This document shows, in pieces, positions 4,311 through 40,030 of a stretch of 42,160 nt of DNA (position 1 is its first letter; each line of letters opens with the position of its first letter). This DNA comes from a virus. The position numbers were made by a program, and so were the translations under genes. The notes below the pieces were generated by a model. The model saw only the letters and a list, made by a program, of their open reading frames with translations. It searched no databases and was not told the DNA's origin. The DNA is taken from positions 1 to 42,160 of the IMG/VR virus record IMGVR_UViG_3300033141_001078. The stretch is one strand, 5' to 3'.

Positions 4311-4570
4311 TTGTGCTTTCTCTGATGAGCTTTTAGTCCAGCAGCACTCTTAGCAACGAAACCGCAAACAGAACAGATAAGTTCACTATCGCCTTGATAG
4401 GTAGTTCCAGAATTATCCAGCCCTTCATCAACCGTTCCCTCAGTGGTAGACTTCTCAGCAAGAACAACCTTCCCTTCTCTGAGAAGTGTCTCGGGATTAG
4501 TCATATCAACTACATCGCCGACTTGCCAGCCCTCAGCGCTATAGAAATCCTCAACAATTTTAACAATCAC
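4307..4570 (-). CDS. C2H2 zinc-finger protein, 87 aa
   Basis: GTG start with a strong SD (GGAGGTGA, 5 nt spacing). The N-terminal 40 residues (EGWQVGDVVDMTNPETLLRE) are a small beta domain seen at the start of some phage proteins. After a Ser/Thr/Gly linker the last 24 residues form a textbook C2H2 finger: CSVC, 12 residues, H, 3 residues, H (CX2CX12HX3H). Classical fingers of this kind are rare in phages. The gene sits inside the glycan island, between the epimerase-like gene and a glycosyltransferase, so a structural or scaffolding role is as likely as DNA binding. Confidence 0.75.
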   Translation of the reverse strand: MIVKIVEDFYSAEGWQVGDVVDMTNPETLLREGKVVLAEKSTTEGTVDEGLDNSGTTYQGDSELICSVCGFVAKSAAGLKAHQRKHK

Positions 4571-4575
4571 TTATA

Positions 4576-6122: not shown

Positions 6123-6814
6123 TTGTAATTCTCAAATGTCTCTGACATCGGCTCCCAGTATTTCCACCACCGCTTAAATAATTCTACCTCTTCTTCCCGT
6201 GTTGGCATAACAGGCGCCCCAGTTTGGGTTACCAAATGGCGCAGGGGCGCTAGTGTGGAAATCATCTTCGCTTTATATCCGGAGGTTTTAACTCCCAAAC
6301 TCACATCGACATCATCAAGGTTTACCATCAAATTCCAATCGGGTATTGGCTTGTATGCCTTCTTGCGAAAGGCAATAGCAAAGCCAACAAACCAGTCAAC
6401 ATTTCGGTCAGGCAGAAACTGGCCAGGCATTTCCCACGGGGCCTCTGGATTGAACGGATTGACCACCCGCCGCCCTTCAATTCCAACAATTCCTGTTTTC
6501 TCATTCTCAAGTTCTGTCAAAAACGGCTTGTACCAACCAGCATCAACATAAGTATCATTGTCTAACCAAAAAACAATGTCGCCTGTTGCGACTTCCATAC
6601 TGGGGTTTCTAGTCGCAGGACAGCCAATATTTTTCTCGTGGCGTATTAGCTTGACATCGGGATAAAACTCCCTTACAAGGTCGCTAATCGGCTCTTCTGA
6701 CCCGTTATCAGTAAACACCAGCTCGTAATCAATATCGGTAAACTTCTTCAACCTCTGTAAAAATTCTTTGGTGAGGTCGTACTTGTTCCAAGCCAAACTA
6801 ACTATTGAGACCAT
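6119..6814 (-). CDS. GT2-family glycosyltransferase, 231 aa
   Basis: Classic family 2 layout: VSIVSLAWNKYDLTKEFLQR at the start, ELVFTDNGSEEP, then EKNIGCPATRNPSMEVATGD and WLDNDTYVD, where the DND is the metal-binding DxD. The ATG at 6814 is preferred because GGAGG lies 9 nt upstream; a TTG at 6820 is the alternative. Overlaps the previous glycosyltransferase by 17 nt and the GT75-like gene by 4 nt (ATGA). Probably transfers a nucleotide sugar to a virion protein or glycan. Confidence 0.85.
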   Translation of the reverse strand: MVSIVSLAWNKYDLTKEFLQRLKKFTDIDYELVFTDNGSEEPISDLVREFYPDVKLIRHEKNIGCPATRNPSMEVATGDIVFWLDNDTYVDAGWYKPFLTELENEKTGIVGIEGRRVVNPFNPEAPWEMPGQFLPDRNVDWFVGFAIAFRKKAYKPIPDWNLMVNLDDVDVSLGVKTSGYKAKMISTLAPLRHLVTQTGAPVMPTREEEVELFKRWWKYWEPMSETFENYK

Positions 6815-7586
6815 GTTCAATTCCCTCCTTCAGCGCTTTGGCGTAATCACTCTCAGTCCACAATTTCTTTTTATTCTCCGCCAAAAGCTCTACAAGTTTT
6901 GGGTTGTCCTTTTCTACCCGTACATCAAGCCCGCAAGCCAAACCCTCTAGCACCGCCCGTTCCCCGCCACCCCAAATATCCGATGTAATGTGTACCCGTT
7001 TAGAAGCGTTGTAGAGCCAAACCAAAACCTCTGGTGTTACCATCGGGAGCACCGTTACCCCATTCTCTAAACAAACCTCAACGCACTCGTACTCCCACCC
7101 ATTAGGTTGGATATATCCTACTGCCAAACCCTGCCGACCGTACTTCTTAGCAAATATCTGATGACGCTTCCACCTAGCAAATGCCGCTGGATAAATCGCC
7201 CTAAATGCCTTTTTTTGCTCCGGAATGGGAACAAATAGCGCTGTGTTTGTTCCAAAAGCTAGTTTAGCATCAATACCAATCTTTCTAAATTCCCTGATGT
7301 GCCACAGGGTTTCAACAAAAACCACATCAAACTTATGAACATCGGGATGTACTTGCCCGCCAGCCACACAAATTCCCTTCTTACAGTCTAGTTGAGCCAC
7401 ATAGGAAACCTGCGGGCTGCCAAACGCCCCCCAAACAAGGGTGAAATTACTTTTGGGAACGGATACAGCACTATTAAAAAAGTTATAATACTCAATGTCC
7501 CAATCCTTTTCCAATATACTTAGAGCTGCCCGTAACCCGTCCCGCCAATACCGACCGCTCCCACTGTACACAAATGATAGTTTCAC
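6798..7586 (-). CDS. Glycosyltransferase, GT4/GT-B like, 262 aa
   Basis: The C-terminal part (DIWGGGERAVLEGLACGLDVRVEKDNPKL) is the donor-binding Rossmann half of GT-B enzymes, with the E-x7-E type signature (ERAVLEGLACG). The N-terminal half is short, so the whole is smaller than most GT4 proteins (350+). GTG start at 7586 overlaps the stop of the small zinc protein (GTGA); the SD AAAGGAGGT is 10 nt upstream. Confidence 0.8.
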   Translation of the reverse strand: MKLSFVYSGSGRYWRDGLRAALSILEKDWDIEYYNFFNSAVSVPKSNFTLVWGAFGSPQVSYVAQLDCKKGICVAGGQVHPDVHKFDVVFVETLWHIREFRKIGIDAKLAFGTNTALFVPIPEQKKAFRAIYPAAFARWKRHQIFAKKYGRQGLAVGYIQPNGWEYECVEVCLENGVTVLPMVTPEVLVWLYNASKRVHITSDIWGGGERAVLEGLACGLDVRVEKDNPKLVELLAENKKKLWTESDYAKALKEGIEHGLNS

Positions 7587-7762
7587 AGCTTCCGAACCTC
7601 CTTTGGCGTAGGTATTTTGCCAGTCAGGGGGTCCATGTGCGCCATTCGATACTTATGGTTAACCACACACATCCTCCGTCCGCAGGTCTCTGGCTCATTC
7701 CGAATATCAATATACTCAAATGTCCGCCCACACTCTGGGCACTTCTTCGTTAATTTCTTCAT
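7583..7762 (-). CDS. Small zinc-binding protein, 59 aa
   Basis: Too short for common ORF limits but clearly set in the operon: its ATG overlaps the stop of the methyltransferase (ATGA at 7759-7762) and its stop overlaps the GTG of the next glycosyltransferase (GTGA). It contains CPEC near residue 8 and two more Cys (ETCGRRMC), enough for one zinc site. Function unknown. Confidence 0.7.
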   Translation of the reverse strand: MKKLTKKCPECGRTFEYIDIRNEPETCGRRMCVVNHKYRMAHMDPLTGKIPTPKEVRKL

Positions 7763-8538
7763 TTCACCCCCTTTCTGAACTTAGCAAATAATAAACCACC
7801 ATCTATTCCGATGGTCGTCTCACAGCCACAGCTCTTGATAAGTCCCTCCAAAGTTTTGTGAGTAAACACCCGAACATGCCCCCGCGTATGCTCACCATCG
7901 TACTCCCAATGACCCAAATTTCCCGCACCGTTACCGTATGGACCATCTGGTGTCGAGATGTAGCACCAGCCACCTTTGTTTACCAAAGATAGCAAATGTT
8001 TAATAAATAACTCTGGGTCGGGAACATGCTCGATAACCTCGAAGGCAACAACCGTGTCTGCCTTGCCTTTGTAATCCATCAAGTCAGAACAAACGAACTT
8101 AGCATCCACCGAGAGGCGCTTAGCTCGCTCCTGAGCGACTTTGATTGCTTTAGCGGTCATATCTACTCCAGTAGCTTTAATGCCCCTGTCAGCGGCGGTC
8201 AGAACCAAACTACCTACATAACAAGCAAGGTCGATTAGAGATTTAGACCTCTCCTTTTCCATTTCCTCCAAGACCCAAGCGTAGCGGGGATAAATCATTT
8301 CAGCGTGGAGAGCTTTACTTTCCGGTTCGATTTTCTCGTAGCTCAAGCAGCTGTCGTTCGCATAAATCTTCTTGTAAAGCTCGGGTTCAAAAAGGTGTCG
8401 CACCATCCCGTATGTCTTATCCAAGTCTTCTTTTAACTCAGGAATGTCTAGCTCTTTTAAGAGATAGTACGCCTTTAGCGGCTCGTCCATTATCAAAAGT
8501 TCCCGCCGAATTATTTTGACAGCGTCAATAAGTTTCAT
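7759..8538 (-). CDS. SAM-dependent methyltransferase, class I, 259 aa
   Basis: The Rossmann core is visible: LIDLACYVGSLVLTAADRG (motif I, D-x-A/G-x-x-x-G), TGVDMTAKAIKVAQERA (motif II), FVCSDLMDY, then VVAFEVIEHVPDPELFIKHL, the EVIEHV box of small-molecule and sugar methyltransferases, and GGWCYISTPDG. Such enzymes often methylate sugars in glycan clusters, which fits the neighbours. A long N-terminal segment (about 80 residues) precedes the core. The ATG overlaps the end of the large glycosyltransferase by 14 nt. Confidence 0.85.
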   Translation of the reverse strand: MKLIDAVKIIRRELLIMDEPLKAYYLLKELDIPELKEDLDKTYGMVRHLFEPELYKKIYANDSCLSYEKIEPESKALHAEMIYPRYAWVLEEMEKERSKSLIDLACYVGSLVLTAADRGIKATGVDMTAKAIKVAQERAKRLSVDAKFVCSDLMDYKGKADTVVAFEVIEHVPDPELFIKHLLSLVNKGGWCYISTPDGPYGNGAGNLGHWEYDGEHTRGHVRVFTHKTLEGLIKSCGCETTIGIDGGLLFAKFRKGVK

Positions 8539-11047
8539 TTTCTTGGAGACTAACCGGTAAATACTTATCTAGTGTCTTATTGTGCTTTAGGATTGTATCT
8601 GCTGCCTCTCTCAACTCATCCCGCTTAAATTCCTTTGTCCACTGCTCAGCCACGGAGTTCCACCCAAACTTCTTCCTAGCCCACGGCATCATCTTTTCCC
8701 TCTGCTCCGTTTGCCACTTATGGTCTTTCAGGGCGGTGATTAAAGCGTTCTTGAATTCCTCAAGGGTCTCTTCATCATAAATATCACCCTTAACCTTCTT
8801 ACCGTATTGGACAGTAGTCTTGAGTGCCGCAAAATCAGTACAGACAGGAACACAACCCCACAGCTGGGATTTGATGGCGGAGATACAGTTTATTTCAAAA
8901 AAGTGCGTTGGGTAGGCCCAAATACCGCATCTCTTGTGCCACTTTTCAATCTCTGGTTGCGGAACACGTCCGTGGTGAGTTACCCCGTCCTGCTCCATCA
9001 GCTTGTTAATCTTTTCCATCCACGCCATCCGTTCTGGATTATCACCATAGAATTTCTTAAACAGCTGCCAGCCGTAGAAGACGTGTAGTTCGGCTTTTGG
9101 TACGGCTTTCTTAACATCTCCCCAAATCTTGAGTAAATGCTCCAAACCCCTATCATACGAAGAGCTCCAAATAATTTTGTAGGGGTCATTCTTTGGCTTT
9201 ATCTTAGGAAAATGCTCACTAAATCCGTTAGTCGATATCAAAATCTTATTGTCGGGAACATTGGGAATTGTGTCTCGATGTGCCTGAGAAAGCACGATTA
9301 TCTTAGCAATCTTATCTAACCGCTCTTGGGTGTGTTCTAGTGGGTTCAAAACATCGTGAGACCAGATGTAAATCTTCTTAGCATCAAAGTTCCCGTCGAC
9401 AAAGGCAACATTCCGCCACCCCACCAAGATGTTGAATTTATCGTTGCGATTGAATTTGTAGTAAGGCAACCATTTAACGCCGTTGTAGTCTCCCTCATCC
9501 TCTCCTGGATCGCCATAAACAGTAACTTTCCACCCAAGTCTAGACAACTCCTCAGAAAGATAAATAACGGCTTCCTCACTCCCACCAAGAAAGCTGCCTT
9601 TAGGGTTTGTAATCCGTTTCGGAGACCAAGATGTAAACCCAGCCCCGCAGTAGATAGCAACCTCATTCTCTTTCCAAACGCGCGGCGGTGTTATCTTCTT
9701 GACCAAATCCTGTATAAACGGATTGCCGATAATAGAATTCGGAATTGAAGCTACAAGAGTCTTGAGCTTGCCCCGTTGTCCCGTGTTGTGAAGGTGCCTT
9801 GCTAATGCGAGAACAATCTGCGTAAGTTCCCGCTGTTGGCGCATAGACTCTGTAAACTTCACCCGATCCTGTATCTCCTTTGCCTCCGGGAAGAATTCTA
9901 GGAGCTTGACAGCAGCCGCCCACGCCTCATCAAGGTGCGATGTTTCTAAACTAGCAAAGTAAATAACCTCCAATGCCCGTGCCGCCAAATCCCGTGGGTT
10001 TCTAACTAATGTTGTTTCAGGATCAGGAATTTTAGCAGCGAGTTTGACCCAGTGTAATGCCTTATCCCATTCTTCCTTTAGAAGGTACGACATTGCCAAA
10101 CTCAAATAAATAGAGGGGAACTTCGGGTCTTCTGACAAAGCGTTCATACAACACTTGATACTGTTGTTGTGTTCTTTCTTTATACGATAAGCTTCTGCCA
10201 TATATTCCCACGCCTGAGAGCGCTCCTCAGCCCAACCAGACATTCTTAGATAGCGGTTTAACAGATTTATACAACTCTCGAGGTATTTGGGATTATGGAG
10301 GTCGTAATATGCTTTTCCAAGATAGTAAATGGGGCGTGGGTCTTTTGCCTTAGTATCATAAATGCTTAATTCCAGCGTCTTGATATTTCGTTTGATTGCC
10401 TTACCCATCCGCTTAGAATCGGATAGATGTAAAACATCCATACTATCGTCTTGAGTTTTTACGGTGGGGCGCTGTTCAATCAGCGTTTCGTGGATCGGAG
10501 CAACCCATTTGTATGCGTTGTTATTTCGCACAAGCCTTTCCCTGAGGTGCTCGATTAGAACATTTCTAACTTTGCCATCAACAATCTCGGCTTGGTAAAT
10601 ATAATTCAGAAACACAGAATCGGCAGATTTTGGTTTAGTCGACTCTGCTCTTGTTACGACTTCACGAAGATGCTCACCACCACGTAAGATATCGTCCGCA
10701 TCAATCCACAAGAACCACTCAAACTCCTTAGGTATTTGGGCTAAAGCGTGGTTGCGTGCTTTATCAAACTGAAATACCCTATCCTTAGTTGTAACCGACG
10801 GCTTTCGTCCAAGAAATTCTGTTAGCCACTTTATCTCTTTCTTTTTTGGTTTGCGGTGGAACTTATACGAGGCAATGTCAACAACGCCGCCGTAGCGTTC
10901 AATGGTAGTCTTGAGGTGATTCTTATCTGGGGTGGTAATTGTTATAAAAATACCGTCAACATACGGTCTGACAGAATTAAGACATCGGGTGATGGTCTCG
11001 ACAGGCTCATCACCTTTGATTATCATCGAAAGAGCTATCTTGCTCAT
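8525..11047 (-). CDS. Bifunctional glycosyltransferase (GT2 - TPR - GT4), 840 aa
   Basis: Residues 1-220 are a GT2 domain (LSMIIKGDEPVETITRCLNS, WIDADD at 114-119). Residues ~235-400 are helical TPR-like repeats (YYLGKAYYDL, AWEYMAEAY, IYLSLAMSYLLKEEWDKAL). Residues ~460-800 are a GT4/GT-B domain (CGAGFTSWSPKRI, GGSEEAVIYLSEELSRLGW, IWSSSYDRGLEHLLKIW, GIWAYPTHFFEINCISA). It would add two different sugars, or extend and cap one glycan. ATGA overlap with the gene at 11044-11421. It is the largest gene of the genome and opens the glycan island. Confidence 0.9.
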   Translation of the reverse strand: MSKIALSMIIKGDEPVETITRCLNSVRPYVDGIFITITTPDKNHLKTTIERYGGVVDIASYKFHRKPKKKEIKWLTEFLGRKPSVTTKDRVFQFDKARNHALAQIPKEFEWFLWIDADDILRGGEHLREVVTRAESTKPKSADSVFLNYIYQAEIVDGKVRNVLIEHLRERLVRNNNAYKWVAPIHETLIEQRPTVKTQDDSMDVLHLSDSKRMGKAIKRNIKTLELSIYDTKAKDPRPIYYLGKAYYDLHNPKYLESCINLLNRYLRMSGWAEERSQAWEYMAEAYRIKKEHNNSIKCCMNALSEDPKFPSIYLSLAMSYLLKEEWDKALHWVKLAAKIPDPETTLVRNPRDLAARALEVIYFASLETSHLDEAWAAAVKLLEFFPEAKEIQDRVKFTESMRQQRELTQIVLALARHLHNTGQRGKLKTLVASIPNSIIGNPFIQDLVKKITPPRVWKENEVAIYCGAGFTSWSPKRITNPKGSFLGGSEEAVIYLSEELSRLGWKVTVYGDPGEDEGDYNGVKWLPYYKFNRNDKFNILVGWRNVAFVDGNFDAKKIYIWSHDVLNPLEHTQERLDKIAKIIVLSQAHRDTIPNVPDNKILISTNGFSEHFPKIKPKNDPYKIIWSSSYDRGLEHLLKIWGDVKKAVPKAELHVFYGWQLFKKFYGDNPERMAWMEKINKLMEQDGVTHHGRVPQPEIEKWHKRCGIWAYPTHFFEINCISAIKSQLWGCVPVCTDFAALKTTVQYGKKVKGDIYDEETLEEFKNALITALKDHKWQTEQREKMMPWARKKFGWNSVAEQWTKEFKRDELREAADTILKHNKTLDKYLPVSLQENETY

Positions 11048-13983: not shown

Positions 13984-14301
13984 TCACCTCCCAATCCCAA
14001 ACGGGCCTTTACTAACCTCTCCCCGTTCTTTTCCTTGTAACTGCTTTACTCTCGGTTCAGCCCCATCAATATAATCAATAATCTCCTGCGCACCACGGGC
14101 AAAACCCCACGCCGTTACGTAGCGATATTGAAAATCCTCAGAAGACTTTGCTTCCCTAGGATCAACCCACGAATTGTGTATTTTGCTCTCTAGCCACGGG
14201 CGGAGTACTTCGAGCCATCCCTTGCTGTGGGATAACTCCAGCACCAAGAGGAGTTGGTCCAGCTCCTCCTGCTCCCCCGGCGAGAGCTTGTTCTTGGCCA
14301 T
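13984..14301 (-). CDS. Hypothetical protein overlapping the portal 3' end, 105 aa
   Basis: Starts inside the portal gene and shares 140 nt with it in another frame. The text is protein-like throughout: LSPGEQEELDQLLLVLELSH, then WLEVLRPWLESKIHNS and a helical QYRYVTAWGFARGAQEIIDY. Its stop (TGA) forms part of the SD of the next gene. Similar 100-residue proteins follow portal genes in other phages; role unknown. Confidence 0.7.
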   Translation of the reverse strand: MAKNKLSPGEQEELDQLLLVLELSHSKGWLEVLRPWLESKIHNSWVDPREAKSSEDFQYRYVTAWGFARGAQEIIDYIDGAEPRVKQLQGKERGEVSKGPFGIGR

Positions 14302-16168
14302 TAGCTCTCAACCGCTCAAAGTATCTATCAGCATCCTTAATTCCCAATTGCTCGTAAAAATCTTCTAGTAGCTCTTTTAACTTTAATCTGTACCCCTCAG
14401 CACCAAGAGCCGTTATAATGTTCGGGTCTTTTGCCAACTCGACAATCTGCCTTCTTGCCGCAACAATCTGGCGATCATCTGGCAAGCTCATACTCTCGAT
14501 ATCGGGAATATAATCATACTTCCCCGATATATCGTCCGGCTCTATCACCAGTTTACCAGTTTCTTTGGTTTCGTCAACCGAGAATTTAGGCAACCGCTCG
14601 CCCTTTACGTTAACTAACTCCTCAGGCGAAGAGAATAGCTCGGCTGGGATATCAAGGCCTGCCAGTTCGGGTGAGGTGAGTAGCCCAAACACCTCGTCGC
14701 TTATCCGCTCCGCTGCCAATGGGGATTTCTCAAAGTACTTAATAGCGTCTTTACCGACAATACGAATTACTTTCGCCTTATCATCGGAAAGCAAAAACTG
14801 CTGGTTCATTTGATGCCAAAACATCATCTGCTTTTTCAGCGCCGCCGCAAGAAAGATTTGATTGAAGTTATCCCTAGCATTCCGCTGTAAAGCGAGGTCT
14901 TGTATTTCCGTTGCTGTCTTTTTACTACCACCAGGAACAAGGTTTGATGTTGCCGCGCTTGTCTCACCCAATGCCTCCATCATCGCCCCTACAATAAACT
15001 TATATGTCGTCGAGAATTCAGCTACTCCAGTCGGTGAGTGCTGCAGTAACTCCACATTGTTCAAATCATCCATCAACCACTTAGCTCCTGGCCCCCACTC
15101 CAGCGTGTGCATCCTTACCCCGGATGTCTTTACCTTCAGGGGTGTGTATAGCCCCGTGTTGATAGCATCAAGATACTGACAAAGTAAAGCATTGTCTGCT
15201 TTCTGTAGTTTCTCTATTGGCTCAAGCTCTGACAAACCATAAAGATCATCATCAACGGGGTAATACTTCAGCATAACCACAGGAATTTGCTGGTGCTTAT
15301 AAGGATTAGGAATATCGCGAAGAATAATCCCGTGTTTCGGGGCAAAGGTAATCCACCTCGTCGGGCGGTACTCAGTTACGACCTCGATTATCTTAAAAGA
15401 GGGATCACGGCCAAGTTGGTCAGTCAGCCCCTTGAGAGAAAGGTTCTTTGATGTCCAGTTAGTAGCTCTTGTGTCCCCTCCCGCTTTCGCTTCCTTATCC
15501 ACTGCATCCCTGAGAATGTCCAAATTTTTATAAATCGGCTTCCCTCTGGCAACATCATTAACACTCTGGAGTTCGTCTATTGTTAGGTAATCTCGGTGTT
15601 GAAACCAATTTTTGATTGAGGAATAAGAGGGGTTAGGCAAACAATCTCGGTTAATAAGAGGTTTGAAGTCGGGGCCGTCAAACCACGGCACACTCTTTGC
15701 ACCGTCCTCACCTTTTTCGATCCGCCGTTCAAAATGCCATTTAGCCAATCCAAACGAGGCACCGTACTTCCGAGCGTTCATATCCATAAACGCCCACTTA
15801 GACAACATTGTGGTGTTGGAAATGCGCTCGTTGTCATCCCATTGAAAGGATAAAACCTCGTTGTTTATATGCGCACCGAGAGAATCTCCCCCCTCACGAG
15901 GAACCAACCGGCCACGGGGCTTTCTAGCAAGTAACCTTGATGTTTTCTCAAAAACAGCGGTAAAGACTCGAGGATCAAAAACTTGCGCTCTATATGGCCA
16001 GTTACTCTCGTCTATATGAGAACGGAACAACTCATCGACGGTATCAAAACTCTTCTTTCGCACGTCCAAATCCTGAGTCGCCATCTCATAATGCCGAATG
16101 ACCTCAGAAAATGATTTTCTTTCCTTTTTATTTCCTCTGACAGCATCAACCATAAGAGAATCAACCAT
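14162..16168 (-). CDS. Portal protein, 668 aa
   Basis: Forms the DNA entry ring. Placed directly after the terminase genes; length fits podovirus-like portals. Recognisable parts are the N-terminal FEKTSRLLARKPRGRLVPRE, a central GLSELEPIEKLQKADNALLC, and ALGETSAATSNLVPGGSKKTATEIQ, typical of portal clip/stem regions. The C-terminal 45 residues are Gly/Ala/Pro-rich. The start is uncertain: the ATG at 16168 (MVDSLMVDAV) is taken because the promoter -10 box lies at 16235-16240; a TTG at 16246 would lie inside the promoter. A later ATG at 16153 is possible. Confidence 0.85.
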   Translation of the reverse strand: MVDSLMVDAVRGNKKERKSFSEVIRHYEMATQDLDVRKKSFDTVDELFRSHIDESNWPYRAQVFDPRVFTAVFEKTSRLLARKPRGRLVPREGGDSLGAHINNEVLSFQWDDNERISNTTMLSKWAFMDMNARKYGASFGLAKWHFERRIEKGEDGAKSVPWFDGPDFKPLINRDCLPNPSYSSIKNWFQHRDYLTIDELQSVNDVARGKPIYKNLDILRDAVDKEAKAGGDTRATNWTSKNLSLKGLTDQLGRDPSFKIIEVVTEYRPTRWITFAPKHGIILRDIPNPYKHQQIPVVMLKYYPVDDDLYGLSELEPIEKLQKADNALLCQYLDAINTGLYTPLKVKTSGVRMHTLEWGPGAKWLMDDLNNVELLQHSPTGVAEFSTTYKFIVGAMMEALGETSAATSNLVPGGSKKTATEIQDLALQRNARDNFNQIFLAAALKKQMMFWHQMNQQFLLSDDKAKVIRIVGKDAIKYFEKSPLAAERISDEVFGLLTSPELAGLDIPAELFSSPEELVNVKGERLPKFSVDETKETGKLVIEPDDISGKYDYIPDIESMSLPDDRQIVAARRQIVELAKDPNIITALGAEGYRLKLKELLEDFYEQLGIKDADRYFERLRANGQEQALAGGAGGAGPTPLGAGVIPQQGMARSTPPVAREQNTQFVG

Positions 16169-16234
16169 ATTAAAAAGAAGCGCCAGCCACAGAAGATCTG
16201 CAACTAGCGTCTTTTTCAGATCGCGAGCGATTTC

Positions 16235-16262
16235 ATTGTAACACAATCCTACCGCTTGTCAA
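16235..16262 (-). promoter_or_regulatory. Sigma-70 type promoter P2 before portal gene
   Basis: Minus strand: TTGACA (16257-16262), 16-bp spacer, TACAAT (16235-16240). The spacer ends GGATTGTGT, giving an extended TG -10 and the same GATTGTG word as P1. RNA would start near 16228 and carry a 60-nt leader with an ATCGC/GCGAT hairpin before the portal ATG. It would drive portal, scaffold and capsid independently of the terminase genes. Confidence 0.75.
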
Positions 16263-16656: not shown

Positions 16657-17973
16657 CTACTTAAAGCTCCAATCTTTCTTACTTATATCGTTAGCAGGTA
16701 AAATCTGGTCCACTGGGCTGGCTGGTTTATAGCTTACCGCTAAGTACCGCAACGCCGCAACCAAATCAAAATGCCCATCTTCAGTAGCGTCCTCATCTAA
16801 CACTGGTACGATTGTACCATACCTAGTCTCTCGCCAGCTCAGAGTCTCCATTTCCCGCACCAGTTGCTTATTCTCCGCCGTGTTAAAAACAAACAATCGA
16901 GGTGCGTTCTCGAACTTTCGCTCGTCTGGTAACCTTACCGTGTGCCCAGGAATCGGTTTCAACATTTGATTAACACTCTCAACACAGTATTCTACCCAGC
17001 CACGGGCTCCCTGACCTATTTCCTTGTTCGCCGGTTGGATGTGAAGGTTATGCTGGTCAAACTCAGTAAACCACTGCCCACCAGAAGGGTCACCCCAAAT
17101 TGGTACAAACATTCCATAATCTTGCGCCCTGATAGCATCAGCGTGTTCTTTTATCGTCCGCCCAGAGTCCCTGTAGGATTTATCAACAAACCAGTTACCA
17201 TCGTAGTCTATTCGTACCCTCACAGAGGCCGTAGGATGCGCGCTACCGTAGTCTATCCCCCTTGCCGCTACCCATGTATCCGGAACATCAAAAGGCGAAA
17301 TTAGGTGTATCCTACGGTCCCAGGATTTGAATGCTAACCCAGTCGCCTTTCTAAAATCTGCCAAGTACTCCTGGGCAAAAGTATCTTCAGTTAACTCCCC
17401 TCTTGCTCTCTCTATTTCTCCCCGTGGTATCCTGGGATTGTCGTAGGTTGTGAATTGCCAAGACTTGTATGATCCCGTGCCACGTTGCCCCAACTCATAC
17501 AGATCGTGGAAATGATTATAACCTTTCGGTGTGGAAATAAAGATTGCCGGCGCCTCATAATCAGTTAGCGTGGGCCTTAGAACCTCGCCCCACAGCCACT
17601 CCCAGCCCCTGATACTAGCAATCTCGTCAATCACCAATCCTCGGAGTTTAACACCACGCAAAGCGTCGGGGTTCTCAGCCCCCTTTAGCTCCATCTTGCT
17701 ACCGTTTTTCAGTAACACTGACAGCTCTTGTTCGTTTTTCTTAGCAATCCAACTCTTTGGGATCTCTTTGTCTAGCTCGGCCCAGTGGATCATCTTGCTT
17801 TGTCTATAAGTAGGGGAGACAATCCAATAAAGCCCCGTGTTTTCAGTAGCCCATTTCAGGGCAATCATCCTACTGAGCACGGATTTGCCAGCTCTTCGAC
17901 CAGCACAGACAACACGGAAACGATGCGGATCTTTAGCTACCTCTGATTGCCACGGTAAGAGTTTAACTTTCAT
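16657..17973 (-). CDS. terL: Terminase large subunit, 438 aa
   Basis: ATP-driven DNA packaging motor and nuclease. Walker A CAGRRAGKS at residues 23-31, Walker B LVIDE at 113-117, coupling motif STP at ~147-149. The RNase H-like nuclease has acidic residues in GIDYGS (~239-244), WGDPSG (~293-298) and GHFDLVAALRYL near the C-terminus. Length is normal. The start overlaps the small terminase by 11 nt. Confidence 0.95.
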   Translation of the reverse strand: MKVKLLPWQSEVAKDPHRFRVVCAGRRAGKSVLSRMIALKWATENTGLYWIVSPTYRQSKMIHWAELDKEIPKSWIAKKNEQELSVLLKNGSKMELKGAENPDALRGVKLRGLVIDEIASIRGWEWLWGEVLRPTLTDYEAPAIFISTPKGYNHFHDLYELGQRGTGSYKSWQFTTYDNPRIPRGEIERARGELTEDTFAQEYLADFRKATGLAFKSWDRRIHLISPFDVPDTWVAARGIDYGSAHPTASVRVRIDYDGNWFVDKSYRDSGRTIKEHADAIRAQDYGMFVPIWGDPSGGQWFTEFDQHNLHIQPANKEIGQGARGWVEYCVESVNQMLKPIPGHTVRLPDERKFENAPRLFVFNTAENKQLVREMETLSWRETRYGTIVPVLDEDATEDGHFDLVAALRYLAVSYKPASPVDQILPANDISKKDWSFK

Positions 17974-18361
17974 CCTCGATGAACTCTACCTTCATATTCT
18001 TAGCGGCAAATTGGAAATTTGTATCTGGTTCACTCTTATAACCCAAAAACTTAGCACTAGTTTTGATATAACTCTCTTTGGCTCTCCAGTCTCGGTTTGA
18101 CTTTAGCTCCAATAAAGTTTCACCAATTGATTCTTCATCTACACCTTGCTTTCTTAGCGCCCGTTGTAAAGCATTTTGAACATTAGGTTTACTTAGGAGC
18201 TGACTAGCATTTACACTAGCTACCTGTCCCTTAGCATCGTAAACCTCACTATATGCTCTTGTGGCACTCTTGCCCTCTGCTATCTTTTTAATCACCATAG
18301 CTTGTCTAGGATTTAACTTGGGGGTTTTCTTAGAGACTTTCTTAGGAGTTTTCTTTGACAT
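17963..18361 (-). CDS. terS: Terminase small subunit, 132 aa
   Basis: DNA-recognition subunit. Lys-rich N-terminal tail, then LNPRQAMVIKKIAEGKSATR ... VNASQLLSKPNVQNAL, the helix-turn-helix of the terminase_2 type, then a coil and SAKFLGYKSE, the family's usual end pattern. Acidic C-terminus. Overlaps the upstream small gene by 20 nt and the large subunit by 11 nt. Confidence 0.9.
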   Translation of the reverse strand: MSKKTPKKVSKKTPKLNPRQAMVIKKIAEGKSATRAYSEVYDAKGQVASVNASQLLSKPNVQNALQRALRKQGVDEESIGETLLELKSNRDWRAKESYIKTSAKFLGYKSEPDTNFQFAAKNMKVEFIEDES

Positions 18362-18503
18362 TTATTTCTAGCTCCTTTCCTTGTAAAGTAGGAAGCTCCT
18401 TGATCTTATTATACTCCGATTCGGGGACCTCGAAGGTCACTCTCCATCCTCTATCCACTCTTAGTTGTTTAATGAATGGATCAAATGCTAGAAATTTAAT
18501 CAT
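18342..18503 (-). CDS. Small hypothetical protein, 53 aa
   Basis: Fills the apparent gap between the zinc protein and the small terminase. ATG overlaps the upstream stop by 8 nt and the stop lies 20 nt inside terS. The text RGWRVTFEVPESEYNKIKEL, then LQGKELEINV, has the beta-alpha-beta flavour of small phage proteins that bind DNA or another protein. No clear SD; translational coupling is likely. Confidence 0.65.
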   Translation of the reverse strand: MIKFLAFDPFIKQLRVDRGWRVTFEVPESEYNKIKELPTLQGKELEINVKENS

Positions 18504-18708
18504 GGGCCCGGTGATACGTATCTTCTTTCCACCATTTTATATCTTGATCGGGTTTTGGTAGGTCTTTTGGTGTTTTGGCTCCTTTGACTATATTATAACA
18601 ATCCATACATAACCAGTATTTTTTGCTTTGGAATCTTTTTTGGCGGCAATCTTCGGAATAGTATCCTTTCTTTCCTACTCTTATACCACAACGAGCGCAG
18701 TACCGCAT
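18496..18708 (-). CDS. Zinc-ribbon (HNH-neighbour type) protein, 70 aa
   Basis: First gene of the packaging operon. Two knuckles are visible: YCARCG at residues 3-8 with SEDC, and LCMDC at 33-37, followed by HRAH at the end. It resembles the Cys-rich N-terminal half of phage HNH proteins, but I do not see a full H-N-H. No SD; its ATG lies 6 nt after a TAGTAT box, so a leaderless message is predicted. Confidence 0.65.
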   Translation of the reverse strand: MRYCARCGIRVGKKGYYSEDCRQKRFQSKKYWLCMDCYNIVKGAKTPKDLPKPDQDIKWWKEDTYHRAHD

Positions 18709-18765: not shown

Positions 18766-18794
18766 TTGACACGGGTTTAGGGTTGTGCTAGGAT
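18766..18794 (+). promoter_or_regulatory. Promoter P4 for the plus-strand micro-gene block
   Basis: TTGACA (18766-18771), exact 17-bp spacer, TAGGAT (18789-18794). The spacer ends GGTTGTGC, matching the GRTTGTG word of the other promoters. The first ATG is at 18802, 7 nt past the -10, with no SD. Divergent from P3 by about 20 bp between their -35 boxes, so one bound protein could control both. Confidence 0.8.
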
Positions 18795-18801
18795 TATGGT
18801 G

Positions 18802-18933
18802 ATGAAGAACCTAGTATTGATTATCCTTATTATCACAGCGTTATTCCTTGCGGCTTCCAAGCCGGTCGAACGATACGATACTACTTGGACACCATCACGG
18901 ATTTATAAATTGGAAGTGGGGGGGAGGCAATGA
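18802..18933 (+). CDS. Small exported or membrane peptide, 43 aa
   Basis: Starts MKNLVLIILIITALFLAASK: a short basic N-terminus, a strong hydrophobic core and an AAS cleavage-like end, so a signal peptide or single anchor. The remainder is short and polar with WTPSRIY. First gene after P4, predicted leaderless. Its stop overlaps the next ATG (ATGA at 18930-18933). Confidence 0.7.
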   Translation: MKNLVLIILIITALFLAASKPVERYDTTWTPSRIYKLEVGGRQ

Positions 18934-19070
18934 AACGGACCCAAGCCGAGTTACGCGTGGAGTGGAAACGCAAAAGGAAAGCGTGGCTAGCAACAAGGGG
19001 AAAACCCAAAAAGCAAAAGAAGTTGCTAGACCTGTTGAACGAGATTGCCGAGAAGGAGTTAGAGCAATGA
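18930..19070 (+). CDS. Small highly basic protein, 46 aa
   Basis: Lys/Arg-rich helix (ELRVEWKRKRKAWLATRGKP) followed by a Leu/Glu-rich amphipathic helix (LLDLLNEIAEKELEQ). Likely binds nucleic acid or a protein partner. Linked by ATGA overlaps on both sides (18930-18933 and 19067-19070), so the three genes should be made in fixed ratio. Confidence 0.7.
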   Translation: MKRTQAELRVEWKRKRKAWLATRGKPKKQKKLLDLLNEIAEKELEQ

Positions 19071-19288
19071 GGGCGGAGAAGTTACTAGAGAACGAGACAA
19101 GCCTACAAGACCCCACCAAAGAGGCCGCAATGCCAGGGGATAAAATGAAATCAACAATCGGAGCAATTATAGAGGCACACGCCAACGGGAAGCTAACAAC
19201 AGCACAAGCTGTAAAACTGATTGCGGCCTGTCGGCCCGAGACAATGATTATCAGGGACGCATTCAAGACCAAAGGACGCAAGAGCTGA
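19067..19288 (+). CDS. Small protein of the coupled trio, 73 aa
   Basis: The true start is the ATG at 19067 in the ATGA overlap; the frame is open further upstream, but that part is a shadow of the two preceding genes. Residues 29-55 (STIGAIIEAHANGKLTTAQA then VKLIAACRP) look like a short helical hairpin. The C-terminus is basic. Function unknown. Confidence 0.7.
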   Translation: MRAEKLLENETSLQDPTKEAAMPGDKMKSTIGAIIEAHANGKLTTAQAVKLIAACRPETMIIRDAFKTKGRKS

Positions 19289-19313
19289 GGCTCGCGCTAT
19301 CCTGCGGACGGGA

Positions 19314-19372
19314 GGGGCGCTAGCTAAAATATAAGGCCCGATGGCCACTTTATAACCTAGCCCAAGCGCCCC
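19314..19372 (+). ncRNA. 59-nt structured RNA element
   Basis: A long near-continuous hairpin: GGGGCGCT/AGCGCCCC (19314-19321 with 19365-19372), GCTA/TAGC (19323-19326 with 19358-19361), TATAA/TTATA (19330-19334 with 19350-19354), GGCC/GGCC (19335-19338 with 19343-19346), loop CGAT. There is no T run, so it is not a standard terminator. It lies in the 119-nt gap between two small genes. It could stabilise or process the message, act in trans, or be a protein-binding site. Confidence 0.6.
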
Positions 19373-19407
19373 ACCCAATACATTAGATTAGATTGGGGGT
19401 GTTGGAT

Positions 19408-19578
19408 ATGAGATACCAAATTAACAGCGTTTACATTACAGCTAAGAACCTACCAGAGGCATTAGATTATACCGATTACTACATTAGGGGGTTGTTAGAT
19501 TGGCGGGATATCATCAAAAGAGGAATTAGGGTCGGGAGGGAACCAAAGAGACCTATTATTGTTGAATTACCATTCTAA
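19408..19578 (+). CDS. Small hypothetical protein, 56 aa
   Basis: ATG at 19408 with GGGGGTG 7 nt upstream; a TTG at 19393 lies within that SD and is not used. The text (MRYQINSVYITAKNLPEALD, YYIRGLLDWRDIIKRGI, RPIIVELPF) suggests a small alpha/beta fold. No known family. Confidence 0.7.
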   Translation: MRYQINSVYITAKNLPEALDYTDYYIRGLLDWRDIIKRGIRVGREPKRPIIVELPF

Positions 19579-19591
19579 GGAGGTGATAGCA

Positions 19592-19753
19592 ATGGACCCA
19601 GAAGTCAGACAAGACGATGATAGAGGATATGATGAGTGGAAAGACAGTGTGCTAGAACAAGCCCACGAGCTGAAAGACGAGGGGCTGATTACCCCAGAAC
19701 AACAGAGGAATTGGATAGGTTGTGCGCTCATTGTATTAAATTACGAGCGTTGA
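19592..19753 (+). CDS. Small acidic protein, 53 aa (possibly frameshifted)
   Basis: Perfect SD AAGGAGGTGAT (19578-19588) before the ATG at 19592. Acidic, helical, with ELKDEGLITPEQQ, the turn seen in SHOCT-like helical pairs. After codon 38 the text becomes odd (RNWIGCALIVLNYER), while the -1 frame continues sensibly (see 19705-19824). Either the frame ends here or a 77-residue protein is made by a -1 shift. Confidence 0.6.
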   Translation: MDPEVRQDDDRGYDEWKDSVLEQAHELKDEGLITPEQQRNWIGCALIVLNYER

Positions 19754-19824
19754 AGGAGCAAGCCAACGAGAGGCAAGGGTACTTTGATGCTTCGATGGAA
19801 GGAACAGAGCACCCAGATTTGTGA
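19705..19824 (+). CDS. Candidate -1-frame continuation of the 19592 gene
   Basis: Moving back one base after CAG (19703-19705) gives PEQQ-EELDRLCAHCIKLRAL and a normal polar end, total 77 residues with a CxxC. Its stop (19822-19824) overlaps the GTG of the next tiny gene (GTGA), the same coupling used elsewhere in this block, which argues that the frame is real. No classic slippery heptamer is present, so a mutation or an assembly error is as likely as programmed shifting. Confidence 0.4.
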   Translation, partial: EELDRLCAHCIKLRALKEQANERQGYFDASMEGTEHPDL

Positions 19825-19886
19825 TAAAGCTAATTTGGTTACTAGTTACAATCGTAATCGGTATCCTGATTACCATAAAAGATTAG
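19821..19886 (+). CDS. Tiny membrane peptide, 21 aa
   Basis: GTG start overlapping the upstream stop (GTGA at 19821-19824). The product MIKLIWLLVTIVIGILITIK plus Asp is essentially one transmembrane helix with a basic end. Comparable peptides act as holin-like or inhibitor peptides; here that is only a suggestion. Confidence 0.5.
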   Translation: MIKLIWLLVTIVIGILITIKD

Positions 19887-19901
19887 GCCACTTAGGCCAC
19901 T
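19884..19901. repeat. Tandem 9-mer TAGGCCACT x2
   Basis: TAGGCCACT occurs twice in tandem at 19884-19892 and 19893-19901, and a third time at 20086-20094 inside the terminator stem, so the three copies flank the two-TM gene at 19918-20076. Possible slippage product or binding sites. Confidence 0.5.
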
Positions 19902-19917
19902 AAGGGGGTGATAATTT

Positions 19918-20076
19918 ATGATAATAGACAAGATATTTGCGGTAATTTCGACACTGTGCTATGGCTACTGTTTTTACTTTATCTCTGCTACACCACCCCA
20001 CCCAGGAAAGATAGCCATAGGGATTGGGTTCGGCCTGTGCTACGGAGCAGCAATGGTTGCCTGGCTATCAAACTAA
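19918..20076 (+). CDS. Small two-helix membrane protein, 52 aa (holin candidate)
   Basis: AAGGGGGTGAT SD 7 nt before the ATG at 19918. Two hydrophobic segments (residues ~5-23, IFAVISTLCYGYCFYFISA; ~31-49, IAIGIGFGLCYGAAMVAWL) joined by a Pro/His/Lys turn. The size and topology fit a small class II holin or a membrane-acting host-takeover peptide. Last gene of the plus-strand block, 11 nt before a terminator. No homology recognised. Confidence 0.65.
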   Translation: MIIDKIFAVISTLCYGYCFYFISATPPHPGKIAIGIGFGLCYGAAMVAWLSN

Positions 20077-20087
20077 TCCAAAAAGTA

Positions 20088-20111
20088 GGCCACTCTCGAT
20101 TGAGGGTGGCC
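20088..20111. terminator. Bidirectional terminator between convergent units
   Basis: Stem GGCCACTCTC/GAGGGTGGCC (20088-20097 with 20102-20111, one G-U pair), loop GATT. Plus strand is followed by TTT; minus strand is followed by TACTTTTTGG. It ends both the plus-strand block and the minus-strand early operon that stops at 20117. Confidence 0.75.
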
Positions 20112-20116
20112 TTTGG

Positions 20117-21142
20117 TTACAGACTCAGCGCATAGCGAGCCGTCAACCCGTACTTCGGGTGGACGAAAAAGAGCGTTTGCTCTGGTACGCTAGCGACTCC
20201 CAGCCTCTCTTCTGCGTACGTGTCTGAATCTATCCAGGCCCCGTTCATTATCGCAACTATCTGGTTGAACCGGAAAATCCCAGCGCTGTGAAAATGCCCG
20301 AAGCAGAAGTAGTCCAGCTTTATCCTATCCCGATAGGCGGTCTGCCAGCGCATACTCTGCCTAGTGATTCCGTATATTGGGGTCGAATAATAGGACCTAA
20401 TTTGCGCACCGTGTGTCAAAAGTACACCTCGTCCCGCAATGCGGAACAGCGACTTCCAGTCATCAGGACCCGTTTTAAGGTGCCACTTCATCCTATCCTG
20501 CTTCCTCGTAGCATTCTCCAACGCCTTGTACAGAACATAGTCCCAGTTCGTACTCGTTGATGCCGTCCACTTGGCCGCCGGTGTGCGCCCGTGATTGCCC
20601 TTTGCGCACTGTACCTCCACCGACTCAAAGTTCTCCAGACAGAAGTAGAGAAACTTGGTGAACTCGGGCAACCCGATAGAGAACACCTGGTCCAAAACAG
20701 GGACATTTATCAACTCGAACTGGCCCGGGAACAGACTTTCCCCGTCCACCAAATCGCCACCAAACATCACGACCAGCTTCTTGATAGGCCGAATACTACG
20801 CAAGGCGCTAACTATGCTTAGAATCGACCTCTCGAGCTTACGCAGGCGTTTGGCGAAGACTTTCGGGTTGTACGTTCTGGTCCTCTTGCCGATGTGGGAA
20901 TCCGAGATGAAGATAACCGCCACCTCTTCCGTCTCGGACATCTTTGGAGCCGGGAAGCTCGGTATCTCGATTGGCGGTAGTGATAGCACCGAGTCCCTGA
21001 CGACATCGACAATGCGGTCTGCGACCTCAATCTCTTTTTCCTGCGACCTGAGCAACCTGTTGACCCTGCGGACACTAGCCTTGAGGCTCTTGCGTTCCTT
21101 CGCCCATTCCCTTTTGAGCTTCTTGACATCTTTCTCCTCCAC
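20117..21142 (-). CDS. Calcineurin-like metallophosphoesterase, 341 aa
   Basis: All family motifs are present in order: ISDSHIGK (D-x-H), GGDLVDGE (GD), KGNHGR (GNH), LLTHGAQ, FGHFHSAG (GHxH). Residues 1-60 form a basic coiled coil (REWAKERKSLKASVRRVNRL), an added oligomerisation part. Phage relatives include Mre11/SbcD-like nucleases and phosphodiesterases. GTG start with SD GGAGGTG, overlapping the preceding gene by 68 nt. By eye this gene is richer in G+C than the nearby early genes, which may point to transfer. Confidence 0.85.
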   Translation of the reverse strand: MEEKDVKKLKREWAKERKSLKASVRRVNRLLRSQEKEIEVADRIVDVVRDSVLSLPPIEIPSFPAPKMSETEEVAVIFISDSHIGKRTRTYNPKVFAKRLRKLERSILSIVSALRSIRPIKKLVVMFGGDLVDGESLFPGQFELINVPVLDQVFSIGLPEFTKFLYFCLENFESVEVQCAKGNHGRTPAAKWTASTSTNWDYVLYKALENATRKQDRMKWHLKTGPDDWKSLFRIAGRGVLLTHGAQIRSYYSTPIYGITRQSMRWQTAYRDRIKLDYFCFGHFHSAGIFRFNQIVAIMNGAWIDSDTYAEERLGVASVPEQTLFFVHPKYGLTARYALSL

Positions 21143-22840: not shown

Positions 22841-22896
22841 TATCTATCACCTCCAAACCTCGCTATCTTCACTTTAATCTCTTCAATCATCTCCAT
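22840..22896 (-). CDS. 18-codon gene made from a copy of the RusA 3' end
   Basis: MEMIEEIKVKIARFGGDR: its last 14 residues repeat the C-terminus of the RusA gene (EEIKVKIARFGGDN). ATG overlaps the previous stop (TAATG) and its stop overlaps the next ATG, so it is placed in the coupled operon. It may mainly carry the SD for the next gene. Confidence 0.55.
   Translation of the reverse strand: MEMIEEIKVKIARFGGDR
22845..22884. repeat. 40-bp direct repeat of 23366-23405
   Basis: 37 of 40 positions match by eye. The copy at 23366-23405 is the 3' end of the RusA gene; this copy lies behind the second coiled-coil gene. The two copies bracket the paralogous pair at 22896-23361, a footprint of local duplication. 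Confidence 0.8.
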
Positions 22897-23129
22897 TAAA
22901 GCTCTATCCTGCCAAGCAAGGACTCGAGGCTACCTAGTATCTCCGCCAACTTAGAGTTCAATACGGTCTTCTCACCAGTACGCTCTGGATTCGACTCCTC
23001 CTCAGCAAGAATCGGACTCAGAACCTCACGCAACTCAATAGCAACTCCCCCAAGCTCTTGTAGTAAGGTGTTCGTCCTGGACTCTGGTTTTTCTTGCGCT
23101 TCAACTTTTGGCGTTTCCGTAAAGGCCAT
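22896..23129 (-). CDS. Coiled-coil protein, paralogue 2, 77 aa
   Basis: Pairs with the gene at 23146: both have ESRTN-x-LL near the start and a final LNSKLAEILGSLESLLGRIEL-type helix. ATG at 23129 with GGAGGTGA 9 nt upstream. Charged, helical, no known domain. Tandem copies suggest a two-subunit coil or recent duplication. Confidence 0.65.
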   Translation of the reverse strand: MAFTETPKVEAQEKPESRTNTLLQELGGVAIELREVLSPILAEEESNPERTGEKTVLNSKLAEILGSLESLLGRIEL

Positions 23130-23145
23130 CAATTATCACCTCCAA

Positions 23146-23361
23146 TCAAAGAGAGATTCTCTTATAAAGGTCTTCAAGTTGGTCTAATATACCTCGGAGC
23201 CTTGAGTTTAGGTCTGTTGCTTCTGCTGCCCGCTCTTCTTCAGTAGGAGCTTCTGAAATAAGTACCGATTTCAAGCTCGCACTAATTGTGACAATGCTTT
23301 CATCAATCTTCGCAAGCAAGTCGTTCGTTCTTGATTCTCCTTTTGAGATTTGTTCCTCCAT
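23146..23361 (-). CDS. Coiled-coil protein, paralogue 1, 71 aa
   Basis: Starts in a TGATG overlap with the RusA stop. Text GESRTNDLLAKIDESIVTIS and LNSRLRGILDQLEDLYKRIS parallels its neighbour at 22896-23129. Predicted two-helix protein; function unknown. Confidence 0.65.
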   Translation of the reverse strand: MEEQISKGESRTNDLLAKIDESIVTISASLKSVLISEAPTEEERAAEATDLNSRLRGILDQLEDLYKRISL

Positions 23362-27872: not shown

Positions 27873-27930
27873 GATTAGTCCCTAAACGCAGGAGGCTCCT
27901 GCCCAGGCCCCCTGCGCCCAAGAACTAATC
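27873..27930 (-). promoter_or_regulatory. 58-nt structured mRNA element before the 27543 gene
   Basis: Outer stem GATTAGT/ACTAATC (27873-27879 with 27924-27930), inner stem CGCAGG/CCTGCG (27887-27892 with 27911-27916), and an alternative CAGGAG-G-CTCCTG palindrome (27889-27901). The outer arm holds the stop codon of the upstream gene; the SD of the next gene follows 2 nt later. Ribosomes finishing the upstream gene would open it: a likely coupling switch. Confidence 0.55.
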
Positions 27931-30152: not shown

Positions 30153-30320
30153 TTATCCACAATTTGGCGGAAAAATCTCTTCTAAAAATAGGTAGTCCTA
30201 GTATGGGAAACACCGAAAGTTATCCACATTTCTTAAAAGTTATCCACAATTAAGGAGGATAAACCCCTCCCATATTTACTACTAATTCGCTTCGCTAAAT
30301 CCTTTATATAATAGGATTTA
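30153..30320. other. Probable replication origin with three DnaA boxes
   Basis: Perfect DnaA boxes TTATCCACA occur at 30153-30161, 30220-30228 and 30240-30248, all in the same direction and each preceded by RAAAG. The last two are 20 bp apart (two helical turns). Right after them is an AT-rich part with TAAATCCT-TTATATAAT-AGGATTTA (30296-30320), a likely unwinding site. The whole 30054-30478 stretch is non-coding. The phage appears to recruit host DnaA. Confidence 0.8.
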
Positions 30321-30864: not shown

Positions 30865-31827
30865 CTATTTCCTTGCGTCGAGCCGTTTCTTGCTTTCCTT
30901 CAAAAACACAAGAAGGATGTTAACGATACCAGTTCCGAGTCCCGAATTGAACTCACGACCAGATAATTCCTGAACCGCTAACTGAATAAGGAACGATAAA
31001 ACAACATACGCCGAGACCTTTACCTCTTGCGGAAGCCCGTCGTAAAAACTGACCACACCAGCTAATTTTTTCTTCAATAGACTCACCCCCTCTCCGAAGT
31101 TGTTCACTATCCTTCTGAGTTCTTCGTTCTGCTCTATCGCTGTGCATAACTTAGCGTTAGACGCAATGAGAGCTTCTCTAGCGCCATCTCTTTCACGAGT
31201 TAATAGTTCGTTATACTCTTTAGATAAACTTAGCTCTTGCCGTAACTCAGACGATGCTTTCTTTTCCTCTGACCACTTCTTCTCATAATCATCACGAAGC
31301 TCCTCCATTGTTTTAATCTCCTCGTTTAAGAGGGAGTTTCTCCGGAGCTGGGTTTGGTAGAGCTGTGCTTGTTCTTTAGTCTTTTCTCGCTCTTGCTCCA
31401 GAGTCTCCTCGGTGTTCCAAAGCCATCGCCAGACTTCGGGGTCGTGGTAATTGGAATAACCACCGACTGTCCGGTTCTTAATGCGTATTCCGAAATGGAG
31501 GTGTGGTCCAGTGGAGTTTCCTGTATTACCAGATCGACCGATGACTTCCCCTTCTTTAAGTCGCTGTCCTTTGTGGACGAGGATTTCGGAGAGGTGAGCA
31601 CATATACTTGTTCCCCAGGAGTGCCGCATCCGGACATAAAGACCGTAACCATCGGGGTCGTTTCCTGTTCGGCTAACAGTTCCATCCGAGCAAGCTCTAA
31701 TTTCAGTACCAATAGGGAGTCCGTAGTCTCTTCCGTTGTGTCCACACAATCCATACTTCTCATAGGATTTCCTGTTTACCCCCCATACCTGAGTACAGCG
31801 TGGTTTACCATCAAAGGGTATTCTCAT
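30865..31827 (-). CDS. M23 peptidase with coiled coil and holin-like tail, 320 aa
   Basis: Residues 1-140 form an M23 (lysostaphin-type) endopeptidase: GHNGRDYGLP (H-x3-D), and GNSTGPHLHFGI (HxH). Residues ~150-255 are a long coiled coil. Residues 269-310 contain two hydrophobic helices (VSAYVVLSFLIQLAVQEL; GLGTGIVNILLVFLK) with a basic end, like a phage holin. The true start is the ATG at 31827, which overlaps the upstream stop (ATGA). It cuts peptide cross-links of the wall; the membrane tail is unusual for an endolysin. Confidence 0.85.
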   Translation of the reverse strand: MRIPFDGKPRCTQVWGVNRKSYEKYGLCGHNGRDYGLPIGTEIRACSDGTVSRTGNDPDGYGLYVRMRHSWGTSICAHLSEILVHKGQRLKEGEVIGRSGNTGNSTGPHLHFGIRIKNRTVGGYSNYHDPEVWRWLWNTEETLEQEREKTKEQAQLYQTQLRRNSLLNEEIKTMEELRDDYEKKWSEEKKASSELRQELSLSKEYNELLTRERDGAREALIASNAKLCTAIEQNEELRRIVNNFGEGVSLLKKKLAGVVSFYDGLPQEVKVSAYVVLSFLIQLAVQELSGREFNSGLGTGIVNILLVFLKESKKRLDARK

Positions 31828-32534
31828 TGTTTTCCTCGCAGACTCGCTGGAGCCGCGAACCACGCTCCCCATCCTTGGTGGTCGTAAATTATCTTTGCCA
31901 TCTTCATATTTTTAACTGGATCTAGCATATCGTCCCAATTGGTAATATCGGCCTGCTTTAGAAGTGCGGGCATTCTTCTCAGGTAATCATAAAACGTCCC
32001 GTTGTTTATTCTAAAAAGTCCCCGATCAACAGAGTCTTCCTTCTCTCCTGTAAAAGGATTTATAATTTTCACGATTGGCGCCTTATCATCCCACTTGCCA
32101 GTCTTGGGATTTATCCTGTTGGGGATGTCTGCCTCTTTACCATACTTGTACTGTGTGTTTTCCCCAACTATTTTGCCATTTTCTTCCCGCCGCAAAACTG
32201 AGTGTGCGTCCTCTGCTAAATCTCCCCACACCTCCCGCATTTCTGCTTCAAACGGTCTTTTACCGGCAGTATCTCTCTGTGTTGGCTCCTTTGCTTGGGG
32301 AACTTCGGGGGCGGGTTCGCGCTCCGGCACTGCTGGTGCCATCGTTGACTTTATTGTTGGCGCAAATACCGGCTTAGGTCTTAAAAGCTGCGGTATGTTT
32401 ATCTGCGCAATACGGCTCCTGATCTTGGACATGTCAAACAGCGGCTCTGATGTCACGGTGTGTTCCTTGCTAGGGAACGGACTCAGTATTGGTGGCTCGC
32501 GCAAATATGACGACAAGATATCAGATATTCTCAT
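31824..32534 (-). CDS. Lytic transglycosylase/lysozyme-like protein, 236 aa
   Basis: The C-terminal 130 residues follow the SLT/goose-lysozyme pattern: SVLRREENGK (candidate catalytic Glu), DRGLFRINNGTF (GLFxIN motif), then NWDDMLDPVKNMKMAKIIYD and QGWGAWFA. The first 100 residues are Pro-rich and extended (APAVPEREPAPEVPQAKEP), perhaps a virion or wall anchor. ATGA-coupled at both ends in the lysis cassette. Confidence 0.75.
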   Translation of the reverse strand: MRISDILSSYLREPPILSPFPSKEHTVTSEPLFDMSKIRSRIAQINIPQLLRPKPVFAPTIKSTMAPAVPEREPAPEVPQAKEPTQRDTAGKRPFEAEMREVWGDLAEDAHSVLRREENGKIVGENTQYKYGKEADIPNRINPKTGKWDDKAPIVKIINPFTGEKEDSVDRGLFRINNGTFYDYLRRMPALLKQADITNWDDMLDPVKNMKMAKIIYDHQGWGAWFAAPASLRGKQ

Positions 32535-40029: not shown

Positions 40030-40030
40030 A

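Follow-up and report, generated by a model that had tools for sequence, protein, structure and literature searches.

A plus-strand block of small coupled genes, a candidate accessory cassette in a variable slot of a phage genome

The block at 18802-20076 of the phage genome described here consists of seven or eight small real genes, designated p1 to p8 (Table 1), and we favour, at a probability of roughly 0.55, the reading that it is an accessory cassette in a variable slot, transcribed early by the host polymerase and encoding micro-proteins that act on the host. The window, that is, the whole record of 42,160 bases, has a 114-bp direct repeat at both ends and thus represents a complete, circularly assembled phage genome. 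A gene caller based on codon usage and ribosome sites assigned about 66 genes to the minus strand and confined plus-strand genes to 18817-20076. The skew agrees, with a GC skew of +0.137 at 19-20 kb (bin 19001-20000), negative values in all other 1-kb bins, and an AT skew of +0.227 at 19-20 kb, so that the preliminary description of the micro-genes as the only plus-strand genes of the genome is confirmed. Because four-base overlaps also occur in 10 of the 65 minus-strand gene pairs and the early genes of this phage have a median length of only 77 codons, small coupled genes are its normal style, and the strand is the unusual part. GC content and codon scores of the block resemble those of the remainder of the genome, without atypical composition, and there is thus no compositional sign of a recent import.

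Table 1. Features of the block and its flanks, with positions in the window
Feature	Position	Strand	Evidence or remark
70-aa Zn-ribbon-like gene, divergent from the block	18496-18708	-	sequence
Flanking 53-aa gene, left anchor	18342-18503	-	65% aa identity in related phage
Sigma70-type promoter TTGACA-N17-TAGGAT, extended -10 (TGc)	18766-18794	+	sequence evidence only
p1, 43 aa, N-terminal signal/anchor helix	18802-18933	+	ORF and codon score; predicted leaderless ATG
p2, 46 aa, very basic helix	18930-19070	+	ATGA overlap with p1; SD GGGGGGAGG
p3, 73 aa, predicted helical	19067-19288	+	ATGA overlap with p2
Structured RNA (long hairpin) in the p3-p4 interval	19314-19372	+	z -4.85
Predicted hairpin sequestering the p4 SD (GGGGGUG 19395-19401)	19374-19403	+	folding
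p4, 56 aa	19408-19578	+	ORF and codon score; SD GGGGGUG 19395-19401
p5, 53 aa, acidic	19592-19753	+	perfect SD AAGGAGGTGAT
p6, 24 aa from TTG 19750	19750-19824	+	TTGA overlap with p5
p7, 21 aa, single transmembrane peptide	19821-19886	+	GTG start; GTGA overlap
Two tandem TAGGCCACT copies	19884-19901	+	third copy in terminator stem 20086-20094
p8, 52 aa, two hydrophobic segments	19918-20076	+	SD GGGGGTGAT
Stem-loop, putative bidirectional terminator between convergent genes	20087-20112	.	z -4.05
Flanking calcineurin-like phosphoesterase, last early-operon gene, right anchor	20117-21142	-	DNA comparison

The plus-strand gene score summed over 18781-20120 was 39.4, compared with 3.4 ± 3.3 (maximum 12.3) in 100 dinucleotide shuffles, and for each of p1-p8 the codon score of the proposed frame exceeded those of all five alternative frames of the same stretch. 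Relative to base-shuffled sequence, codon z values were 2.3-3.5 for p1-p4 and the short form of p6, 1.8 for p5, 1.3 for p7 and 1.1 for p8. Alternative starts of p6 give forms of up to 62 aa (GTG 19636) that overlap p5, and the codon score gave z 3.2 for the short form and z 1.8 for the 62-aa form. The ATGA, ATGA and GTGA overlaps noted earlier are present at 18930-18933, 19067-19070 and 19821-19824, with a possible fourth overlap, TTGA, at 19750-19753 between p5 and p6; the product sizes, previously given as 21-77 residues, have to be corrected to 21-73 aa according to the ORF list. Given their low codon z, the main evidence for p7 is the GTGA overlap, and that for p8 a good SD. These two values, the length of p7 (just 21 residues) and the z of only -1.95 for the 121-nt RNA region as a whole could be taken to mean that the block is only partly real, p1-p6 being genes and p7, p8 and the RNA structure chance features of a spacer. 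However, p8 combines a strong SD with 52 codons, p7 is joined by its overlap, hydrophobic genes fare poorly under a codon model whose training set was soluble proteins, and the central hairpin alone reaches the z listed in Table 1, a value to be read in the light of borders picked after folding. We consider a partly spurious block very unlikely.

Of the structured RNA proposed in the preliminary description, a good hairpin stands, with no match in Rfam: the search gave no gathering match in the window and, in the block, only a chance-level match even at a permissive threshold. The second predicted hairpin, which would hide the p4 SD, competes with 3 further pairs that would extend the 19314-19372 stem, and the predicted closed state (-48.5) is the ground state, with the open state (-45.5) lying 3 kcal/mol above it. 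We hypothesise that a bistable RNA may gate the second half of the block. This arrangement resembles SD-sequestering RNA thermometers and riboswitch-like leaders in that the predicted ground state masks the p4 SD and an alternative of near energy frees it; it differs from them in having no Rfam match, homologues or covariation, and no known ligand or trigger. A more elaborate version, in which the block would be a new counter-defence or host-interaction operon in two halves, with p1-p3 made immediately from a leaderless message and p4-p8 only once the bistable p3/p4 RNA switch exposes the hidden ribosome-binding site, seems improbable to us. Elsewhere in the genome, a near-perfect long hairpin (27873-27930, minus strand) sits immediately in front of the gene whose start is at 27860 and is preceded by a second hairpin; both together give z -6.7, stronger than the hairpin of the block. 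The hairpin at 27873-27930 has no Rfam match and could be a mobile or regulatory element.

The near-perfect promoter claimed for the start of the block is borne out, as far as sequence can tell, by the strong site TTGACA-17-TGcTAGGAT, which ranks among the best three of the genome. TTGACA-N16-18-TANNNT sites number six in the genome (1.2 expected), five on the minus strand and one, at 18766-18794, on the plus strand. ATG 18802 sits 7 nt past the -10 hexamer, and since transcription would start about 7 bases after the -10, at this very ATG, p1 is predicted to be leaderless. A 45-aa form of p1 from 18796 was rejected because its start would precede the expected +1. The layout TTGACA-N16-18-TANNNT-N5-10-ATG occurs four times in the genome (0.12 expected), in front of the genes at 18802(+), 22056(-), 29580(-) and 30802(-), all of them outside the structural modules and all starting 7-9 bases past the promoter; the genes at 18802 and 29580 have the 7-base distance in common, and both begin with the ten bases ATGAAGAACC. 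In G012, the record of a related phage, two TTGACA sites are followed by an ATG gene start (28310 and 45939) 6-7 bases past the -10. A weaker promoter of the predicted leaderless kind, TTGTAA-17-TAGTAT, lies 6 nt from the ATG of the 70-aa gene that diverges from the block. The four promoter-proximal starts suggest leaderless early mRNAs, and the layout, which recurs in a second phage whose early region is related, hints at the identity of the host. An intergenic stretch (30153-30248) contains three exact copies of the DnaA box TTATCCACA, at 30153, 30220 and 30240, and is likely to be a replication origin using host DnaA.

At the 3' end of the block, the strong terminator described earlier needs qualification: the stem-loop itself is strong, and the U-run is poor on the side of the plus-strand block, whose tail reads only UUUGGUU, with UUUUU found on the minus-strand side instead. 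The element is therefore better termed a bidirectional terminator of convergent operons, and it probably ends both of them. The genome contains three copies of the 9-mer TAGGCCACT (0.28 expected), each of them within the block.

The site of the block was compared with those of other phages. The phosphoesterase query retrieved two contigs, L109 and L110, whose versions of the protein are 90% identical to it. DNA similarity to them (84.8% over 21154 to 20114) ends three bases past the phosphoesterase stop and returns at 18455-18382, within the 53-aa gene that lies upstream of the terminase gene. In the interval bounded by these anchors, the window carries the block and the 70-aa Zn-ribbon-like gene, and L110 carries an opposite-strand 201-aa HNH gene (HNH_3, E 4.5e-13), a 126-aa gene and a 465-aa glycosyltransferase/methyltransferase. 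Different genes between the same two anchors imply that the block occupies a variable slot with exchangeable contents, as seen in one comparison lineage, L109 and L110 being near copies. The remainder of the L109/L110-type phage, including its structural genes, is largely unrelated to the window phage, and a phosphoesterase 90% identical in otherwise largely unrelated phages points to recent exchange and probably to a shared host.

Other relatives were reached through the structural and packaging genes. The capsid query gave seven contigs at 53-82% identity, and the portal alignment 80 loci at 34-62%, with some contigs in common. Terminase comparisons were uninformative for the block: the terminase (16657-17973) is 65% identical in L002 and L003, which share little else with the window, so that the terminase itself is mosaic. 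The portal (14162-16246) defines a group of at least 85 IMG/VR contigs and gave, among genome contigs, just one fragment and one full-length distant match, the latter at 37% and located in a metagenome-assembled bin; the group therefore appears to be uncultured. The position of the block identifies, within this large and apparently uncultured phage group, a slot whose genes can be swapped. The genes upstream of the terminase are wholly divergent in some relatives (L031, L037, L043, L054 and L105) and wholly co-directional in others (e.g. L040, L050, L055 and L059), and the window genome belongs to the co-directional type except for a small divergent island. From this distribution the block might be viewed as the remnant or short form of a divergent early operon, ancestrally linked to lysogeny, of which the promoter-proximal micro-genes stayed divergent and most of the remainder came to lie on the other strand. 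Minus-strand gene runs upstream of the terminase in L031, L037/L021, L043/L023, L054 and L105 speak for such an origin; the run of L037/L021 opens with overlapping 44-aa and 80-aa genes followed by a larger gene (222-228 aa) whose product looks like an ERF-type recombinase, and L023 carries a Phage_integrase gene (E 9e-25). Yet the block proteins have no sequence similarity to the small genes of these relatives and match no repressor or integrase family, and neither an integrase, sought by reading the ORF list, nor a repressor was recognised in the window. We regard a remnant of this kind as unlikely and retain the accessory cassette as the preferred reading.

The contents of the block have no known relatives. 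Pfam, NCBIfam and PADLOC gave no convincing match for any product, and matches below 0.01 were limited to two PHROGs without assigned function (E about 3e-4) and one partial PADLOC match, in agreement with the earlier statement that no product belongs to a known family. The candidates rejected were PHROG 26162 for p1 (E 3e-4) and PHROG 17539 for p5 (E 3e-4, over 18 residues), both unconvincing matches to families of unknown function, and the sub-threshold matches of p5 to SHOCT (E 0.044) and, partially, to a PADLOC type I specificity profile (E 0.003), and of p3 to FadD8 (E 0.016). Among cultured phages, p1, p3 and p8 found nothing, and p4 and p5 found only chance-level matches. No homologues of the block products were detected in IMG/VR, no homologous frame in about 200 fetched loci (2.3 Mb), and none of p3 in 13 whole records; the products are absent from all of about 90 relatives sharing the portal, terminase or capsid, and from the 78 further loci (about 27-33% identity) of a wider phosphoesterase scan. 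In the relatives, counterparts are likewise lacking for most of the early genes at 21-30 kb. Single-sequence AlphaFold models were only partly confident for p3, with C-terminal helices at 23-39, 45-55 and 57-69 (pLDDT at most 88), and unreliable for p4.

Short hydrophobic or signal-anchor peptides make up three of the eight products (p1, p7 and p8), and the block could accordingly be pictured as mainly a superinfection-exclusion or envelope module in which these three block re-infection or modulate lysis. The main lysis genes are located elsewhere (an M23 peptidase at 30865-31872, E 3.5e-25), no endolysin was found within the block, and p1, p7 and p8 would thus not be needed for standard lysis. 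However, none of them matches a known superinfection-exclusion or holin family, and the other five products are soluble; a dedicated exclusion or envelope module is, in our view, distinctly unlikely.

The accessory cassette reading can be set beside two known kinds of locus. Like phage accessory ('moron') loci, the block is a small opposite-strand unit that has a predicted promoter of its own, is followed by a candidate stem-loop terminator and is missing from the same site in relatives. Such loci of temperate phages are described as often highly expressed in lysogeny (PMC7067206). The block differs from them in having eight coupled genes rather than one or two and no compositional shift, and there is no sign that the window phage is temperate. 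Virulent phages, for their part, possess early host-takeover gene clusters, such as the T7 0.3-0.7 region and the SPP1 early units. In SPP1, uncharacterised polypeptides are interspersed among the early replication genes (PMC6316719). Strong host-type promoters and tiny unrelated ORFs are common to these clusters and the block, whose host-type promoter and leaderless layout recur at the genes starting at 22056, 29580 and 30802; unlike them, the block is detached from the early operon and encoded on the opposite strand, and its products are without known relatives. The block is built like a phage accessory cassette, a familiar kind of locus, here with contents that lack known relatives.

Based on these comparisons, we propose the following hypothetical scenario, in which (i) the cassette is seated where the early operon ends and the packaging operon begins; (ii) host RNA polymerase would transcribe it early from the strong extended -10 promoter, a type that precedes other non-structural genes of the phage; (iii) translation would begin on the leaderless message and proceed by coupling down the chain; (iv) the stem-loop common to the convergent early operon would terminate the transcript; and (v) the membrane peptides p1, p7 and p8 and the small soluble or basic p2-p6 would act on the host, at the envelope, nucleic acids or defence. 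An accessory, probably early-expressed role is supported by the variability of the site and by the promoter class shared with other non-structural genes. Coding capacity, strand, promoter class and variability of the slot are established here, and early timing, operon structure, coupling, leaderless translation and host targets are inferred. Phage accessory ORFans commonly act on the host cell. Since ORFans like those of the block are common in the early region of this phage, host interaction is the default guess, and a host-takeover or immunity function is plausible. In the preliminary description the block was called a possibly undescribed host-interaction cassette, which is reasonable as a working hypothesis; 'undescribed' holds, given the lack of convincing relatives and the other genes in the slot of a related phage, and host interaction is the part we continue to infer. 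The products p1-p8 provide a short candidate list of host-acting or counter-defence micro-proteins.

Two further observations concern other gene groups of the genome. Between the capsid and tail genes (3573-11047), several genes, some of them common to relatives, appear to encode glycosyltransferases, methyltransferases and a nucleotide-sugar epimerase, and perhaps serve glycan decoration of the virion or the host surface. In the ORF list, two pairs of similar adjacent genes were noticed, at 22896-23361 and 39361-40726, which suggests tandem duplications.
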